From a virus, in IMG/VR virus record IMGVR_UViG_3300009412_000043, positions 1-22,967 of that record: 22,967 nt of DNA; one strand, written 5' to 3'. The stretch's first letter is position 1. The number at the start of each line of letters is the position of its first letter. This document shows positions 1-14,948 of the stretch, piece by piece. A program made the position numbers and the translations under genes. The notes below the pieces were generated by a model. It worked only from the letters and a program-made list of their open reading frames with translations. It ran no database searches and had not been told where the DNA came from.

Positions 1-117
1 CAGCTCGCCGCGCCAGGCGAGCCAGCCCAGGATCACCGGCAGGGCAAAGACCGACCGGAAGAACACCGCCTCGCCGGGCGGCACATCCTGCGAGGTGGCC
101 TTGATCAGCGCCGCCAT
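1..117 (-). pseudogene. EamA/DMT-family transporter fragment (bacterial chromosome)
   Basis: Read on the minus strand from position 117, this stretch gives 39 codons without a stop and continues off the left edge. The peptide contains IKATSQDVPPGEAVFFR followed by a hydrophobic segment and WLAWRGEL. This is the loop and second membrane helix seen near the N-terminus of EamA (drug/metabolite transporter) inner-membrane proteins. Family members have a first membrane helix just before this motif. Here the upstream in-frame codons read hydrophilic residues (RRLHGLEIV) that belong to the phage DNA, so the transporter is truncated at its 5' side. It does not resemble a phage gene. It is either flanking host chromosome, transduced or recombined host DNA, or an assembly chimera. 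Confidence 0.75.
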
Positions 118-123
118 GACGAT
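118..123. other. Probable host/phage junction
   Basis: To the left the minus strand codes for a bacterial transporter. From about 121 the plus strand codes for the phage helicase (DLE, then PPEFLID). The change falls within a few bases of 118-123. The plus-strand frame of the helicase stays open to base 1, but that part is antisense to the transporter, so it is probably not genuine helicase sequence. Confidence 0.55.
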
Positions 124-132
124 CTCGAGACC

Positions 133-1155
133 ATGCAGCCGCCGGAGTTCCTCATAGATCGCTACATCCCCGAGCATGGCTTCGGGATCCTGTTCGGGGC
201 CCCCGGCAGCAAGAAGAGCTTCATAGCTCTCGATATGGCCCTGTCCCTCGCCTACGGCCTGCCGGACTGGCACGGCGACCCCGTCTTGCAGAGAGAGGGA
301 CGTGGCGGCGTCCTCTACATCGCCGGCGAGGGCGCTTCGGGGTTCCAGGCCCGCGTCGCGGCGTGGAAGCACGGACGCCTGCTGCCCGACGGCAAGGCCC
401 CCGACATCAAGTTCCTGTTCCAGCCTGTCAACTTCATGCGCGTCGAGGACATCCTGCGCCTCAAGGAGACGGTCAAGGATCACCACCCCGGCCCCCTGTC
501 CTTGATCGTGGTCGACACGGTCTCGCGCTCGATCCCGGGCGCAGACGAGAACCTTCAGAAGGACATGACGGTCTTCGTCTCGGCCTGTGACGCGCTGCGC
601 GCTGCGACGGGGGCTTTCGTGCTGGGCATCCATCACGCGTCCAAGGCCGGTGAGATGCGAGGCTCGACGGTGTTCCTCGGCCAGGCCGACGTGGTGCTGC
701 GCACGGGCACGAAGAAGGGTAGCCCGATCGTGAGCCTGCATTGCGAGAAGATGAAGGAGGCCCCCGACGGCTGGCACGACACCTACCGCATGGACGTCGT
801 GGACCTCGGGGACGAGCGCACGTCGCTGAAGCCGGAGCGCGTGGACGCGACGGACGTCGAGGCGCGCAGGCTCACGCAGGAGCAGCAGCAGGCCGTTCTC
901 GACGCCATGCAGGCCGCGTGGGAGGCGGGTACGCCTTGGGCGGCTGCGGCGCAGGCAAAGGAGCGCTACGCCCCGCGCAAGATCGCGCAGATGCTGGGCA
1001 TGCCCGCGGAGGACGCCACGGGCTATCTGGACCTCTGGGCCATGCAGGGCCTGATCGACGTGGCCGTGCGCGACGCTGGCTCGAAGCTCAAGGGCTACAG
1101 GGTGCTCGGCCGGCTGGACGAGACGCAAGAGGGACGCGAGGGGGTGTTCGGATGA
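133..1155 (+). CDS. RepA-like AAA/RecA-fold helicase ATPase, 5'-truncated
   Basis: This is a DNA-unwinding or replication ATPase of the plasmid RepA/DnaB-like group. Residues 22-29 (GAPGSKKS) form the Walker A loop. Residues around 122-128 (SLIVVDTVS) form Walker B. The stretch GIHHASKAGEMRGS and following matches the conserved HH...RGS sensor region of phage and plasmid RepA-type ATPases. The C-terminal third looks like a winged-helix or linker region. In relatives, a DLE-x-x-PPEWL motif precedes the ATPase and further residues lie before it. Here DLETMQPPEFL is present, but what lies upstream is transporter DNA, so the true start is probably missing. The ATG at 133 is only the first in-frame one and has no clear ribosome site. 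The end overlaps the next start as ATGA. Confidence 0.8.
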   Translation: MQPPEFLIDRYIPEHGFGILFGAPGSKKSFIALDMALSLAYGLPDWHGDPVLQREGRGGVLYIAGEGASGFQARVAAWKHGRLLPDGKAPDIKFLFQPVNFMRVEDILRLKETVKDHHPGPLSLIVVDTVSRSIPGADENLQKDMTVFVSACDALRAATGAFVLGIHHASKAGEMRGSTVFLGQADVVLRTGTKKGSPIVSLHCEKMKEAPDGWHDTYRMDVVDLGDERTSLKPERVDATDVEARRLTQEQQQAVLDAMQAAWEAGTPWAAAAQAKERYAPRKIAQMLGMPAEDATGYLDLWAMQGLIDVAVRDAGSKLKGYRVLGRLDETQEGREGVFG

Positions 1156-1679
1156 CGACGGGCATGGGCGGTCACCAGAAAGCGGGGCGTGGCATGCGCG
1201 TATGGCTGACGCCGCCGTGGCTGATAGAGAAGCTCGGGCCGTTTGATCTGGACCCCTGCTACTCCGAGCCTCGGCCCTGGCCGACGGCGGCGAGGCATTA
1301 CGGCGAGTCGGACTGCTGCGGGCTGGGCGGCCTTCACCTGCCCTGGAACGGCCTCGTCTGGTGCAACCCGCCCTATGACAAGCACGCGGAGGCGTGGCTG
1401 GCGCGGTGCGCCGATCACGGCAACGCCATCACTCTCATATTCGCGCGGACGGAGACATCCGCCTTTCACCGGCAGGTCTGGCAGCGCGCCGACGCCGTTT
1501 TCTTTTTCCGCAATCGCCTGACCTTTCACGCGGCAGACGGCACGAAAGCCAAGGCCAACGGAGGCGCGCCCTCGGTGCTGGTCTGCTACGGCACCACGGC
1601 AGTCGAACGCGTGGAACGCGCGCATCTGTCCGGACGCATGGTTCACCTCCACAACGCGCAGGAAGGGGTGTTCGGATGA
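1141..1679 (+). repeat. Gene-border direct repeat pair bracketing the methyltransferase gene
   Basis: The 15 bases GGGGTGTTCGGATGA occur at 1141-1155 and again at 1665-1679. Each copy holds the last codons of the upstream gene (GVFG), its TGA, a G-rich ribosome site and the ATG of the next gene. The methyltransferase gene is therefore enclosed exactly by two copies. Recombination between them would remove it and leave the helicase and HTH genes coupled as before. Confidence 0.8.
1152..1679 (+). CDS. Phage DNA N-6-adenine methyltransferase (Dam-like)
   Basis: The 175-residue product transfers a methyl group from S-adenosylmethionine to adenine N6 in DNA. The sequence has the short phage Dam-type layout: WLTPPWLIEKLGPFDLDPC at about residues 18-36 and the catalytic NPPY motif at 72-75. 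A later segment resembles the family's substrate-binding part (FARTETSAFHRQVW, then FFFRNRLTFH). The start at 1152 overlaps the helicase stop by four bases (ATGA), indicating translational coupling. Likely roles are protection of phage DNA from host restriction or regulation of replication; the target site cannot be read from sequence. The gene is bracketed by a 15-base direct repeat, see the separate repeat entry. Confidence 0.88.
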   Translation: MTTGMGGHQKAGRGMRVWLTPPWLIEKLGPFDLDPCYSEPRPWPTAARHYGESDCCGLGGLHLPWNGLVWCNPPYDKHAEAWLARCADHGNAITLIFARTETSAFHRQVWQRADAVFFFRNRLTFHAADGTKAKANGGAPSVLVCYGTTAVERVERAHLSGRMVHLHNAQEGVFG

Positions 1680-1888
1680 TGGACGACGAGCCTCTCAGGG
1701 CCCTTGCCCGCAAATGCGCACGCGCCAACCTCAGCCTGCGCGATGCACGGGCCCTGTTCCTGGCCCTCTATGCCGCTGATGCCCTCATGCTCGAGGGTGG
1801 CGATCGCAGGGCCGCCGCGGCGCGCACGAAGCAGAGCATCGACACACTGAACGGGCGCCGCAAGGCGGTCGAGGACGAATTCGAATAG
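1676..1888 (+). CDS. Small Fis-like helix-turn-helix protein
   Basis: This is a 70-residue protein starting at the ATG that overlaps the methyltransferase stop; a second ATG follows directly at 1679. The C-terminal half (ALYAADALMLEGGDRRAAAA, then an S-x-DTLN-x-RRK segment) has the spacing of a Fis-type helix-turn-helix: a first helix, GG-D/N-R-x-x-A-A turn, then a recognition helix rich in T, L and R. The family assignment is my inference from this pattern. It would be a DNA-binding regulator or nucleoid-type factor of the replication block. It is the last gene of its unit, with a terminator about 30 bases downstream. Confidence 0.55.
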   Translation: MMDDEPLRALARKCARANLSLRDARALFLALYAADALMLEGGDRRAAAARTKQSIDTLNGRRKAVEDEFE

Positions 1889-3979: not shown

Positions 3980-4249
3980 TCAAGCTGTGCAGATAGAGCC
4001 TTCAGCGAATTGATAGAGAGGGCCATGAAGCCCGGAGGGCATCGGTTTGAACCTTTCTCTTTTGATGCGGTCGGAGTCCGCTAACAGCACCATTTCTGCG
4101 CGCTGGATTTCCGCGAGACGGGAGCCACTGCTGACTCTTTTCATAGCGTCGATGTGCCGGAACAGCGCGCGGATGGCGTCGTTTTTTGTGCGAGCTTTGC
4201 AGTGGAATACGCGGCGCCCCTTGGGCCCGATAAATACGCGATAGGGCAT
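3980..4249 (-). CDS. Hypothetical basic protein, 89 aa
   Basis: This is a small protein rich in lysine and arginine, especially at its N-terminus (MPYRVFIGPKGRRVFHCKAR) and around residues 78-85 from the far end of the helical middle (DRIKRERFKP). The first 20 residues suggest a beta-hairpin, followed by a helix (NDAIRALFRHIDAMKRV). This could bind nucleic acid, but no known family was recognised. The start at 4249 uses AAAGG about eight bases upstream, inside a 17-base border sequence identical to the one before the neighbouring 79-residue gene. Confidence 0.65.
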   Translation of the reverse strand: MPYRVFIGPKGRRVFHCKARTKNDAIRALFRHIDAMKRVSSGSRLAEIQRAEMVLLADSDRIKRERFKPMPSGLHGPLYQFAEGSICTA

Positions 4250-4514
4250 GGTTCAGCCTTTCAGAGGTACGGATCCAGCACGGAAAGCCAGACTTCGCGT
4301 GTCAGCTTTTCGGGATGAAGGGTTTCGGCGGTGTCGAATTCTTCGCGGATGTCCGAGGCATCATTTCCGTCCATCCACAGGGTGCGCATGGGGCTATTGA
4401 GATCCCCGAAATTGAAGGCATATGCGGCGCCGTTGCCGAAGGACGTCACGCGAAGTCTTTCCGCGCCCTGTCCCGAGTCATGGATGTCAATTTGTTTCAT
4501 GGTTCAGCCTTTCA
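4247..4514 (-). repeat. 17-base gene-border repeat bracketing the 79-aa gene
   Basis: On the minus strand TGAAAGGCTGAACCATG occurs at 4498-4514 and 4247-4263. Each copy contains the upstream gene's TGA, an AAAGG ribosome site and the next ATG. The gene at 4261-4500 lies exactly between the two copies. Confidence 0.85.
4261..4500 (-). CDS. Hypothetical acidic protein, 79 aa
   Basis: This acidic small protein (KQIDIHDSGQGAERLRVTSF at the N-terminus, then NFGDLNSPMRTLWMDGNDAS and a helical C-terminus ending in WLSVLDPYL) was not recognised. The pattern of alternating hydrophobic residues near the N-terminus suggests beta strands followed by helices. It has no membrane segment. The start at 4500 follows the stop of the preceding membrane protein by 11 bases and uses the ribosome site in the shared 17-base border repeat. 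Its exact bracketing by that repeat suggests it is a replaceable cassette. Confidence 0.7.
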   Translation of the reverse strand: MKQIDIHDSGQGAERLRVTSFGNGAAYAFNFGDLNSPMRTLWMDGNDASDIREEFDTAETLHPEKLTREVWLSVLDPYL

Positions 4515-4661
4515 AAGTCCAAGAGCATGACCCGCCACAAGGGCAAGCCAGAGCAGGGCGAGGAGGGAAACGACGCCTAGAACGTCGCCAAGGATTTGCG
4601 GGAGATGGCGCAAGGCGCGGGCCAGTCTTCTATCGCGTGCGGCACGGGGAGCGTGTTTCAT
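4512..4661 (-). CDS. Small membrane protein, 49 aa
   Basis: The start chosen is the ATG at 4661, which overlaps the stop of the upstream gene (ATGA); longer in-frame starts would run far into that gene. The first 20 residues are very basic (KHAPRAARDRRLARALRH). Residues about 28-48 (LGVVSLLALLWLALVAGHAL) form one membrane helix that ends at the C-terminus. The arginine-rich side should stay in the cytoplasm, giving a tail-anchored layout. No family was recognised. It is the second of three tiny membrane proteins in this cluster. Confidence 0.65.
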   Translation of the reverse strand: MKHAPRAARDRRLARALRHLPQILGDVLGVVSLLALLWLALVAGHALGL

Positions 4662-4924
4662 TCCCGATTCACCTTTTCCGCGCATTCCGTCACCGGAACG
4701 TACAAGGCGAGATCCGCGCATACTGCGTCGACGTCATCCGCCTGCAGGTGCGCGATGGCATCCCGGACGCGACGCGAGAGTCGCATTGCCGCGTGATAAG
4801 CGGATTCCGAAGAGGTGACTCGGGCGTGCTGTTCATGCGACGCAAGGCGCAACGCCAGCATATCCAGCAACGCAGGCTTGTCCTTGCGCATGGCGTCCGA
4901 GATGACTTTGCGGGGGGCGATCAT
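4658..4924 (-). CDS. Hypothetical helical protein, 88 aa
   Basis: The start at 4924 (MIAPRKVISDAM) was preferred over an upstream ATG because it overlaps the stop of the preceding gene as ATGA and follows a GGAAAGGCGG ribosome site. The product looks all-helical: DKPALLDMLALRLASHEQHA, then a helix around YHAAMRLSRRVRDAIAHLQ and a final acidic helix. There is no membrane segment. No family was recognised. It is probably soluble and possibly binds a partner protein through its helices. Confidence 0.68.
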   Translation of the reverse strand: MIAPRKVISDAMRKDKPALLDMLALRLASHEQHARVTSSESAYHAAMRLSRRVRDAIAHLQADDVDAVCADLALYVPVTECAEKVNRE

Positions 4925-5100
4925 GCGGCACCGCCTTTCCGCGCGGCGCGCGCCTCGGATTCCGCTATCCAACGGCGCGCATTTTCACGGCCGGTTTCGC
5001 GCGCCTTTTCGATTTGAGAGTCGAACGTCACCAGCATGTAGATGGCGTTCGCCAGCATGGCGACGCACAGGGCGAGGAGGAGAATAAGCGCCGTGGTCAT
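4921..5100 (-). CDS. Small membrane protein with coiled tail, 59 aa
   Basis: The start at 5100 overlaps the upstream stop (ATGA). Residues 3-25 (TALILLLALCVAMLANAIYM and following) form one N-terminal membrane helix. Residues 29-55 are a charged helix (QIEKARETGRENARRW and on), probably a cytoplasmic coiled segment. The protein ends in KGGAA, the same five residues that end its upstream neighbour, because both C-termini are encoded by the shared border repeat. Its function is unknown. The layout (single anchor plus charged helix) is common in small phage membrane proteins. Confidence 0.68.
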   Translation of the reverse strand: MTTALILLLALCVAMLANAIYMLVTFDSQIEKARETGRENARRWIAESEARAARKGGAA

Positions 5101-5116
5101 GCTGCACCGCCTTTCC
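4921..5116 (-). repeat. 20-base gene-border repeat bracketing the 59-aa membrane gene
   Basis: The plus-strand stretches at 4921-4940 and 5097-5116 are identical in 19 of 20 positions. On the minus strand each encodes the C-terminal residues KGGAA of one gene, its TGA, and the overlapping ATG of the next, with the GGAAAGGCGG ribosome site inside the coding end. The gene at 4921-5100 is bounded by the two copies. Confidence 0.85.
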
Positions 5117-5577: not shown

Positions 5578-6033
5578 GTGCCGCTTAAAGATGGGACCAT
5601 GACTCGGGGTGAAATGGCCTTTATACAGGCATATGCAGGGACAAATGACCGCGAAAAGGCTGAAAAGCAGGCCAAAATCGCGCCAGGTACGGGATACAGG
5701 CTTTTGGCCCGTCTGGAGGTGCAACGCGAGATCAACCGCCAGGAGCGCGGGAGGATGCTCGAGCTTTTGCACCTGTCGAACGAATGGGCGCTCAAGGTCA
5801 TGCGCGACGCGAAGAAGCCCGACACGATCAAGCGGGACATTGCGCGCGAGGTCTGGAAACTCACGCTAGGCGCAGACGCGTCCAGCGGTACCGAGGCCAA
5901 AGAGCCGCACGAAATGACAGCCGACGAGCTGTCGGCGGAGCTCGACAGGCTGATGAAGGCGCGCGACGCCTTGGCCGAAAATGCAAAGGACGTGACGCCT
6001 TCGGATGGCCAGGACGGCACGCCCTTCGACTAG
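5578..6033 (+). CDS. Terminase small subunit (probable)
   Basis: The 151-residue product would recognise phage DNA and load the large terminase for packaging. The N-terminal part (MTRGEMAFIQAYAGTNDREK, then a helix with GTGYRLLARLEVQREINR) matches the helix-turn-helix DNA-binding domain of small terminases. A helical oligomerisation core and an acidic, flexible C-terminus (DELSAELDRLMKARDALAEN) follow. The GTG at 5578 was chosen because GGAAAGGA stands seven bases upstream; the ATG at 5599 is an alternative. The large subunit gene is 7.3 kb away, which is an unusual separation. Assignment rests on domain pattern and context. Confidence 0.7.
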   Translation: MPLKDGTMTRGEMAFIQAYAGTNDREKAEKQAKIAPGTGYRLLARLEVQREINRQERGRMLELLHLSNEWALKVMRDAKKPDTIKRDIAREVWKLTLGADASSGTEAKEPHEMTADELSAELDRLMKARDALAENAKDVTPSDGQDGTPFD

Positions 6034-6343: not shown

Positions 6344-6919
6344 ATGACCAGACGAGACCTACCACCTATCCAGTTTCTCCGCGAGTGCTTTCGCCTCGAT
6401 CCGAACACGGGCCTTCTCTACTGGCGAGAACGCCCGGAGCATCATTTCGCAACACCGGCCCACGCGCGAGGGTGGAACCGCAGACATGCGGGCGCGGAGG
6501 TGTATCTGTACATGGACAGGGCCGGTTACGGACACGTCGAGATGTACCCAAACGGCAAGAAGGCCAAGTGGCCTGCGCACCGGATCGTTTTTGCTCTGTC
6601 TACAGGTAACGACCCGGATCGAGTCGACCACCGGGACTGCGACCCCTCCAACAACCGGCCCAACAATCTCCGCGCTGCGACGGGGCTGCAGAACCGCTGG
6701 AACGCGCCCGGGTGGCACAAAAACACGCTCCCGAAAGGTGTTCACTACGAACGCGGACGTTTCTACGCCAAGGCCCGTCCCCCGAGGAGCAAAAGCGCCT
6801 TGTCCCTGGGTGGGTTCGCCACTCCCGCCGCGGCGCACGCAGCCTGGTGCGAATGGGCACGAGACGTGCACGGCGAATTCTTCAACCCCGGGCCCTTGAA
6901 GTTGACGGTCTTCGACTAG
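6344..6919 (+). CDS. HNH endonuclease with AP2 DNA-binding domain
   Basis: This is a 191-residue free-standing homing-type endonuclease. Residues about 75-120 form the HNH_3-type nuclease domain: H79 in WPAHRIVFAL, then the VDHRDCDPSNNRPNNLR core with D95, H96 and N103/N104/N108. Residues about 131-180 (KGVHYERGRFYAKARP and on to WCEWARDVHGEF) form an AP2-type DNA-binding domain. The start at 6344 has AGGA about nine bases upstream. The gene stands alone between the hairpin-rich spacer and the late promoter, typical of a selfish insertion. No split gene around it is evident, so it does not appear to be inside an intron. A role in packaging-end processing, known for some HNH proteins encoded near terminases, is also possible. 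Confidence 0.88.
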   Translation: MTRRDLPPIQFLRECFRLDPNTGLLYWRERPEHHFATPAHARGWNRRHAGAEVYLYMDRAGYGHVEMYPNGKKAKWPAHRIVFALSTGNDPDRVDHRDCDPSNNRPNNLRAATGLQNRWNAPGWHKNTLPKGVHYERGRFYAKARPPRSKSALSLGGFATPAAAHAAWCEWARDVHGEFFNPGPLKLTVFD

Positions 6920-13349: not shown

Positions 13350-14948
13350 ATGCCTAGAAAGGTCGAGGATCAGGAGCTTCATGACCTTGATCGCCAGATC
13401 AGCCTGCTCACGCGGCAGACGCTGGCCGCGAAAGCGCGCGAGTCCCTCATGCCGTTCATCAAGTTCACCATGCCGGACCCCGCCAATCCCAGCGACCCAG
13501 AGGCCACGCGCTACGACAACGCGCGGCACCACGACGCTATTGCGGCGGCGGTGGAGGCGGTGGTCGACGGCGACATCCAGTTCCTGATCCTCACCGTCCC
13601 GCCCAGGCATGGCAAAAGCGAAATCGTCTCGCGCCGCCTGCCCGCGTGGTTCCTCGGCCGGTTCCCGGATCAGAATGTGGTCGTGGCCACCTACAACGAC
13701 GATTTCGCCAAGGACTTTGGCGCAGATGTTCGCAGCATCATGACGTCGCACCAGTACCGCCAGATTTTCCCGCGGGTGAAGCTGCAGCGCGGCGGGACAG
13801 CCAAGGACCGGCTGCAGACAGTCGAGGGCGGCATGGCGACGTTTGTCGGCGTGGGCGGCTCACTGACCGGGCGCGGCGCGCACATGCTGATCGTCGACGA
13901 CGTCATAAAGAGCTACGAGGACGCCCGATCGCAGAGTTTCCGGGACCGGGCCTGGAACTGGTTCACGAAGGTGGCGATGACGCGCCGGATGGGCAAGAAG
14001 CTGGTCATCATCACGTTCACGCGCTGGCATACCGACGACATCATAGGTCGGCTCACCGACCCCGAGAACGAACATTACAACCGGGCCATCGCCAAGAAGA
14101 TCAAGATCATCGACCTGCCGGCAATCGCGCGGGACGACGATCCCCTGGGCCGGGCGCCCGGCGAGGTGCTTTGGCCGGAGTGGTACGACCGCGAGTTCCT
14201 CGAGGAGCAGCGGGGCATCGACCCGCTGGGCTTCGAGTCGCTCTACCAGCAGCGCCCCACCGTGGCAGACGGCATCCTGTTTCGACGTGAGCACGTCCAG
14301 TGGTATGGGCCCGACGAGTCGATGCCGACGCCGGACATGCAGGATCTGCGCATATATTGCGCCTCGGATCACGCGGTATCGACGGCGCAACGCGCCGACA
14401 AGACCTGTCTGCTCAAGGTCGGCCTGGACCGGCAGAACAACATCTTCATCCTCGACTGCTGGTGGCAGAAGGCGTCCACGGATCGCGTGGTCGAGGCCAT
14501 GCTCGACATGGGCGGCGGGCAACACAGGCCGCTGGTTTGGTGGGCGGAGAAGGGCCACATTTCAAAGTCGATCGGGCCGTTCCTGCGCAAGCGGATGCTC
14601 GAGTCGGGCAAGTTCTTCAGCGTCAGCGAGGTCACGCCCGCCGGCGACAAGGAACAGCGCGCGCAGTCGATCTCGGCGCGCATGGCGATGGGCCACGTCT
14701 ACTGGCCCCGCAACAAGGTCTGGGCCAACGCGGCGATCGAGGAGCTCCTGGCTTTCCCCAACGGTCTGCACGACGATTTCGTGGACGCCTTCGCCTACAT
14801 CGGTCTTGGACTTGGTGGCATGTTTCCGGTAGGAAATAGCGACCGACACCGCAAGACAGAACCCCGCTACGGGACGCTCGGGTGGGTCAAGCAGCAACAG
14901 CGGCAGGACGATCGAGCGCGTCGCGCCGAAGCCTACGGGGGCTTTTGA
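13350..14948 (+). CDS. terL: Terminase large subunit
   Basis: This is the packaging ATPase and nuclease, 532 residues. The ATPase domain has Walker A PPRHGKS at 84-90, Walker B MLIVDD at 179-184 and a coupling-type stretch VIITFTRWHTDDIIGRL. The C-terminal RNase H-like nuclease domain shows acidic positions in YCASDHAVS, in a WWAEKG segment and in GLHDDFVDAFAY near residue 485. Length and motifs are those of a full-length protein. GGGGAG stands before the ATG at 13350. The stop shares a base with the portal start. The small subunit is not adjacent but at 5578. Confidence 0.93.
   Translation: MPRKVEDQELHDLDRQISLLTRQTLAAKARESLMPFIKFTMPDPANPSDPEATRYDNARHHDAIAAAVEAVVDGDIQFLILTVPPRHGKSEIVSRRLPAWFLGRFPDQNVVVATYNDDFAKDFGADVRSIMTSHQYRQIFPRVKLQRGGTAKDRLQTVEGGMATFVGVGGSLTGRGAHMLIVDDVIKSYEDARSQSFRDRAWNWFTKVAMTRRMGKKLVIITFTRWHTDDIIGRLTDPENEHYNRAIAKKIKIIDLPAIARDDDPLGRAPGEVLWPEWYDREFLEEQRGIDPLGFESLYQQRPTVADGILFRREHVQWYGPDESMPTPDMQDLRIYCASDHAVSTAQRADKTCLLKVGLDRQNNIFILDCWWQKASTDRVVEAMLDMGGGQHRPLVWWAEKGHISKSIGPFLRKRMLESGKFFSVSEVTPAGDKEQRAQSISARMAMGHVYWPRNKVWANAAIEELLAFPNGLHDDFVDAFAYIGLGLGGMFPVGNSDRHRKTEPRYGTLGWVKQQQRQDDRARRAEAYGGF

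Follow-up and report, generated by a model that had tools for sequence, protein, structure and literature searches.

Why should a methyltransferase gene in a virus begin and end with the same short piece of DNA? In the window (the whole stretch analyzed, which is 22,967 bases long and probably a fragment of a virus genome), the sequence GGGGTGTTCGGATGA occurs at positions 1141-1155 and again at 1665-1679, and these copies form the two borders of the gene. The sequence-only reading that had drawn attention to this 15-base direct repeat also held that each copy contains the end of one gene, its stop codon, a ribosome site, and the next start codon, and both observations were confirmed. When extended by one codon, the copies (1138-1155 and 1662-1679) are identical at 17 of 18 bases, with GAG/GAA as the sole mismatch. 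The bases flanking these 18 nucleotides do not match each other. The features at this locus are as follows.

1-1155, plus strand: 3′ part of an AAA helicase (helicase/primase) gene; the reading frame is open at the contig start and runs from an ATG at 133 (PF13481, E=4.7e-32).
1138-1155, plus strand: repeat copy 1, with EGVFG code, Shine-Dalgarno-like GAGGGGG, and an ATGA overlap with the methyltransferase start.
1152-1679, plus strand: predicted Dam-type N6-adenine methyltransferase, 175 amino acids, ending ...NAQEGVFG (PF05869, E=4.1e-9; phrog_111, E=1.5e-32).
1662-1679, plus strand: repeat copy 2, with EGVFG code, Shine-Dalgarno-like GAAGGGG, and an ATGA overlap with the start of the next open reading frame (ORF).
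1676-1888, plus strand: ORF of 70 amino acids, translationally coupled to the methyltransferase gene, with no known family match.

Copy 1 carries the last five helicase codons and the stop (GAG GGG GTG TTC GGA TGA, or EGVFG-stop), and the methyltransferase gene starts at 1152. Copy 2 carries the EGVFG codons and stop of the methyltransferase gene, and the ATG of the next ORF is at 1676. Four of the five EGVFG codons are identical between the two gene ends. The exact 15-mer occurs just twice in 1.2 Mb of relatives, and the window repeat is therefore far beyond chance. Both of these occurrences are the 3′ end of an unrelated gene, namely a RusA gene in G030 and a gene for a GapR-like protein in a Rhodopseudomonas prophage. 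We consider it probable that the repeat is the code of a docking tip that is common to the DNA-processing proteins of this phage and is bound by a putative receptor.

The methyltransferase assignment comes from the profile matches (36.8 bits to PF05869, for which the curated cut-off is 28.1) and from a catalytic NPPY motif (WCNPPYDK) whose NPP is invariant in 37 homologs, and the activity is thus a predicted one. Family homology stops before the EGVFG tip, and the homologs lack such an end. In a structure model with a mean pLDDT of 85.6, residues 169-175 fall below 50 and are disordered. A fold search with this model gave no PDB match at E<=0.001. The proposal that the gene is a movable insertion is supported, since a close homolog is present in none of 30 related records and noncoding DNA follows the helicase gene in the closest relatives, where the methyltransferase gene and the following ORF are both absent. 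A remote homolog (31% identity) resides at another place in G006. Searches of viral contigs likewise found no close relative of the methyltransferase and no relative of the 70-amino-acid ORF.

Orthologs of the helicase reveal what is conserved at this border. Homologs in relatives have open frames of about 600-830 amino acids with a conserved C-terminal end, and orthologs with 45-52% identity end in [DE][GD][IV]F[GASD] or close variants. The ends include DGVFG, DGIFG, DGIFA, GGIFS, EDIFG, EEIFT, and SEGIFD, their codons differ, and all three stop codons are used. Directly 3′ of the helicase end in these relatives is noncoding DNA with no coupled gene. In the window, noncoding DNA just after the helicase operon (2099-2246) holds TGCGGAAGT(A/T)CGGAAGTT repeats, and relatives have tandem repeats of other motifs (GGCGAGGGTT, GTACGGAAGTT) immediately after the stop of the helicase gene. 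The repeats at 2099-2246 are iteron-like and possibly mark an origin region.

Many unrelated proteins carry the same kind of end. The pattern [IVL]F[GASTDEKNQ] is C-terminal in 101 of 602 proteins from 12 genomes, where about 2.4 are expected from the rate at other C-terminal offsets (0.39%); these counts come from heuristic gene calls in the unannotated relatives and from non-independent samples, as are proteins of related phages. The preferred form is [GD][IV]F[GDAE], and ORF ends in the census of relatives include EGVFG, EGIFG, DDVFA, TDIFA, QDVFG, and similar sequences. Family searches identified the bearers as a RusA-like resolvase, a Gp2.5/Enc34-like single-stranded DNA-binding protein (SSB), a GapR-like DNA-binding protein, an Rv2179c-like exonuclease, N6/N4 and C5 DNA methyltransferases, another DNA methyltransferase family, a Holliday junction resolvase, and a TerS-like protein. 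Rhizobium phage RHph_N65, which was annotated by its depositors, has the tip on 13 of 67 proteins, with 13 of 46 early genes versus 1 of 23 structural genes carrying it (p=0.017). No known C-terminal motif shared among phage proteins was found in the open-access literature, subscription papers being outside this search.

Some other C-terminal patterns were seen. In the 12 genomes, [IVL]F-x is likewise overrepresented at a position 9 residues upstream of the C-terminus (11 versus about 2.4 expected). Phenylalanine is the last residue of 18 of the 602 proteins, largely in a ...GGF class; a conserved ...GGF-stop is found at the end of TerL in the window (14931-14948) and in TerL of relatives, and is another shared pattern with a terminal Phe. 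A conserved small protein (L263, 31679-32002, and its L246 homolog) ends VEGVPA or VDSVPA, which may be a variant of the tip in which Pro replaces Phe.

The window itself has four tip-like ends (two EGVFG, TVFD, and TPFD). It spans just the 3′ end of the replication region. The two tip-like ends outside the repeat belong to the following genes.

5578-6033, plus strand: probable small terminase subunit, ending ...DGTPFD (tip variant), judged from its position before the HNH and TerL genes and from the TerS-like proteins of relatives.
6344-6919, plus strand: HNH endonuclease, ending ...LTVFD (tip; phrog_99, E=5.5e-35).

The protein encoded at 5578-6033 itself has no PHROG match, and the TerS-like proteins of relatives end in the tip. 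A terminase 100% identical to that of the window is present on a 10,356-base contig from another metagenome (L083), and thus the same virus was present in a second sample. This contig ends short of the repeat.

The tip is an added module, and homologs outside this phage group lack it. In the clade, RusA has the C-terminal sequence ...VTPI-TDEEGVFG, whereas homologs with 57% identity from other phages terminate at ...VTPLA, and the loci of these tipless homologs have no tips. In the ortholog sets of RusA, the GapR-like protein, the exonuclease, and TerS, almost every member from a genome with the replication module described below has the tip, and the linker that precedes it differs in length and sequence among members. 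Acidity and disorder propensity are both higher in the 14 residues upstream of the tip than in other proteins, with a net acidity of +0.96 versus -0.30 (p=2e-9).

The distribution of tips follows a replication module, and follows neither the virion genes nor the helicase. This module comprises a DUF2800 nuclease, a Gp2.5-like SSB, a family-A DNA polymerase (PolA), and an SNF2 helicase, and tips are present in 22 genomes that have it. Two genomes with a related helicase and no module (G009 and G011) have zero tips by the strict pattern, whereas EBPR siphovirus 2, in which the module is present and the virion genes are unrelated, has 11-12. The count is low in some module genomes, such as G018 with 5 by the loose pattern. 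In module genomes with PolA, the SSB ends GAxGLFG and the helicase ends [IV]F[GASDE]. A single PolA query gave no match among genome contigs, and an alignment query led to two independent prophages, one in Rhodopseudomonas pseudopalustris with tips on 10 of 88 ORFs and one in Nitratireductor soli with tips on 8 of 101. Far relatives of the module (phages of Streptococcus, Brevibacterium, Microcystis, Bacteroides, and Elizabethkingia) have SSBs with different ends, have 0-1 tip, and exhibit no clear shared alternative. One environmental podovirus has an SSB that ends DDLFN and three further tips.

Two polymerase ends were also noted. PolA of the tip-bearing phages (L263, 23194-25452, and relatives) has a conserved basic GKRYRK[DE] tail. 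In addition, a protein of Nitratireductor soli (L374) matches the Y-family polymerase profile PF11799, is probably ImuB, and ends HGVFA, similar to the phage tip. This end possibly hints at a host partner, and it is likewise possibly due to chance.

Tips also vary by genome. The residue before the Phe (position -3) is V in all 12 tips of EBPR siphovirus 2. It is V in 11 tips and I in 1 of G007, and I in 9 and V in 0 of G005, which has the same GC content. A is favored at this position in G018, G022, G023, and G028. Unrelated proteins encoded by the same genome agree at this position more often than predicted by a null corrected for composition (p=0.0002, z=9.7). Because the match goes beyond composition, it points to one common receptor, and these dialects are most simply read as the mark of a common receptor that varies from one phage or host to another. 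Neither gene trees nor single alignment columns of PolA, SSB, DUF2800, and SNF2 gave convincing clustering by, or covariation with, the dialects, and therefore a phage-encoded receptor is a candidate at most. Among the 12 families tested, column 48 of SNF2 reached p=0.05 and one column of a tail protein reached p=0.01, and neither was accepted as evidence.

These data are consistent with the following scheme. Many unrelated DNA-transaction proteins in this phage group carry a tip with the consensus [GD]-[I/V/A]-F-[G/D/A/E]-COOH, and this tip would act as a docking peptide for one common receptor. Docking might gather the helicase, SSB, resolvase, nucleases, methyltransferases, and terminase at replicating phage DNA, and a newly acquired enzyme, such as the Dam methyltransferase, could join the set by carrying the tip. 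Candidates for the receptor are the phage polymerase (as in T7) and the host sliding clamp. Where an ATGA-coupled gene terminates in the tip, the tip codons also contain the Shine-Dalgarno sequence of the next gene. The near-identity of the 18 bases at both borders would thus result from the same peptide, a Shine-Dalgarno sequence within its codons, and the ATGA overlap.

This view has to be weighed against explanations in which DNA rather than peptide is the conserved entity. It had been suggested that the repeats are recombination joints at which a single gene is inserted, deleted, or swapped while its neighbors remain undisturbed, and that the same design is seen twice more in the window. 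Indeed, the methyltransferase gene is missing at this place in relatives, where helicase orthologs end exactly here, and two more pairs of neighboring small genes share repeats with sequences nearly absent elsewhere, as listed here.

4247-4266, minus strand: start-region repeat, downstream copy, at the start of an 89-amino-acid ORF; stop, AAAGG, spacer, and ATG; 19 of 20 bases match 4498-4517.
4498-4517, minus strand: start-region repeat, upstream copy, at the start of a 79-amino-acid ORF; stop, AAAGG, spacer, and ATG.
4921-4940, minus strand: junction repeat KGGAA-stop/ATGA, downstream copy, with a start at 4924; 19 of 20 bases match 5097-5116.
5097-5116, minus strand: junction repeat KGGAA-stop/ATGA, upstream copy, with a start at 5100.

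Across 4247-4517 and 4921-5116, 18-19 of 20 bases before the starts are common to neighboring small genes. Both pairs exist as described, but their design differs: they have no Phe tips, the first pair shares no coding sequence beyond the stop, and both contain AAAGG and are almost unique to the window (the 4247/4498 sequence was not found in relatives). They are local duplications of start regions, unlike the EGVFG repeat. Outside the window, start regions are alike (>=15/20) in 8 of 513 neighbor pairs versus 17 of 9301 non-neighbor pairs (p=2.6e-5). Because of this 8.7-fold neighbor excess, a weak form of the joint idea survives, in which start regions are duplicated between neighbors. For the methyltransferase pair, a conserved protein tail is the better explanation. 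This tail is kept where no gene follows, it occurs on many unrelated proteins, and its codons are free to vary. Where two tips have the same amino acid, its codons match in 52.9% of within-genome comparisons versus 55.1% of between-genome comparisons, and because there is no within-genome excess, the DNA identity needs no duplication. Junctions that are identical or match at 17 of 18 nucleotides also end unrelated genes of different phages, and on this result together with the codon test, a recombination joint was rejected as the main cause. Neither a deletion nor an exchange at the repeat was observed, and a helicase-J-g3 intermediate was not found. We therefore regard joints as an improbable account of the repeat.

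A stronger contender is that the DNA coding for the methyltransferase tip is a copy of the helicase end, made by a 3′-end duplication upon insertion, akin to a target-site duplication. The four identical codons fit this history, as does the fact that the helicase copy is ancestral judging by its orthologs whereas methyltransferase homologs have no tip. However, the flanks of the 18 nucleotides are unlike, and copying is not needed because, in other genomes, EGVFG with near-identical codons also arose on RusA and on methyltransferases. Perhaps one should grant this origin about one chance in four, and it is in any case compatible with a docking function. Far less credible is that a Shine-Dalgarno sequence, spacer, and ATGA are conserved for translational coupling, with EGVFG as an in-frame by-product in the manner of the cluster K sequences discussed below. 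A copy does hold GAAGGGG and ATGA, several tips end GGATGA, and 1.2 Mb of module genomes contain 12 copies of GGRGTNTTCGGATGA. But 55 of 88 tips have no ATGA end, many have no Shine-Dalgarno sequence in their codons (e.g., GCGACCGACATATTCGACTGA), noncoding DNA follows the helicase tips, and the SSB and TerS tips are apart from the next start, with amino acids rather than bases conserved. It is also conceivable, if unlikely, that the tip serves instead as a degron at the C-terminus or as a sorting signal (for turnover, packaging, or a phage-specific compartment) and not a replisome docking element, given that it is C-terminal, disordered, and common to unrelated proteins. Its bearers, however, include an SSB and a helicase, which should be stable and abundant, and the enrichment in early over structural genes of RHph_N65 noted above speaks against either role.

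Thus, a docking tip remains our preferred reading of the repeat. A broader proposal, which we favor by a slight degree over its negation, is that the tip works as an address code at the C-terminus: a single receptor would read a tip of 3-4 residues on every DNA-handling protein, the genome dialects (I-, V-, and A-type) would drift, and foreign enzymes would join the replication factory via the tip. If true, the tip names members of the phage replication assembly from sequence alone, including proteins with no assigned function. The concerted change of tips within a genome would likewise be a natural covariation experiment for finding the receptor. More generally, a short repeat that borders a gene can encode protein instead of acting as a DNA joint.

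Several known systems resemble this tip, and we claim membership in none of them. The bacterial SSB also ends in a tip (DDDIPF), where one protein bears the tip and many partners read it. An acidic stretch with hydrophobic C-terminal residues is found in both cases, and host SSBs end DDEIPF or DDDIPF. However, Phe is last there and second-last here (in 101 of 101 tips, by definition of the pattern), and there are many bearers here versus one there; membership was therefore rejected. The beta-clamp binding motif, Q-phi-x-[L/M]-[F/L] (PMC11139829), is likewise a short linear motif that has a key Phe and occurs on a range of unrelated DNA enzymes. Its position 4 is Leu or Met, whereas Ile, Val, or Ala is found here. 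The strict motif appears in 2 of 101 tips (QIDLF) and Q-x-x-phi-F, with Gln at position 1, in 8 of 101, and the tip was rejected as a clamp motif because most tips lack the defining combination of Gln at position 1 and an aliphatic residue at position 2. The start-associated sequences of cluster K mycobacteriophages are short repeats at gene starts with a Shine-Dalgarno sequence and are conserved as DNA before start codons (PMC3203893). Here, a C-terminal peptide is conserved while its codons vary, rather than bases whatever the frame, and tips that exist without a downstream gene rule out a start-associated DNA signal.

The best functional analogy is provided by the T7 replisome, in which helicase tails dock on basic patches of the polymerase (PMC12593628) and SSBs of the T7 type bear acidic C-terminal tails (PMC5686142). 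The phages examined here differ in that 5-13 proteins per genome have the tip, including methyltransferases, resolvase, and terminase, and in that Phe is second-last. Docking of gp4 and gp2.5 on the gp5 polymerase is known for T7, whereas here the polymerase is a candidate receptor for which no covariation with the dialects was found. Nevertheless, as in T7, the same tail is found on the SSB and the replicative helicase of one phage, a family-A polymerase is present, and the tails are acidic and disordered.
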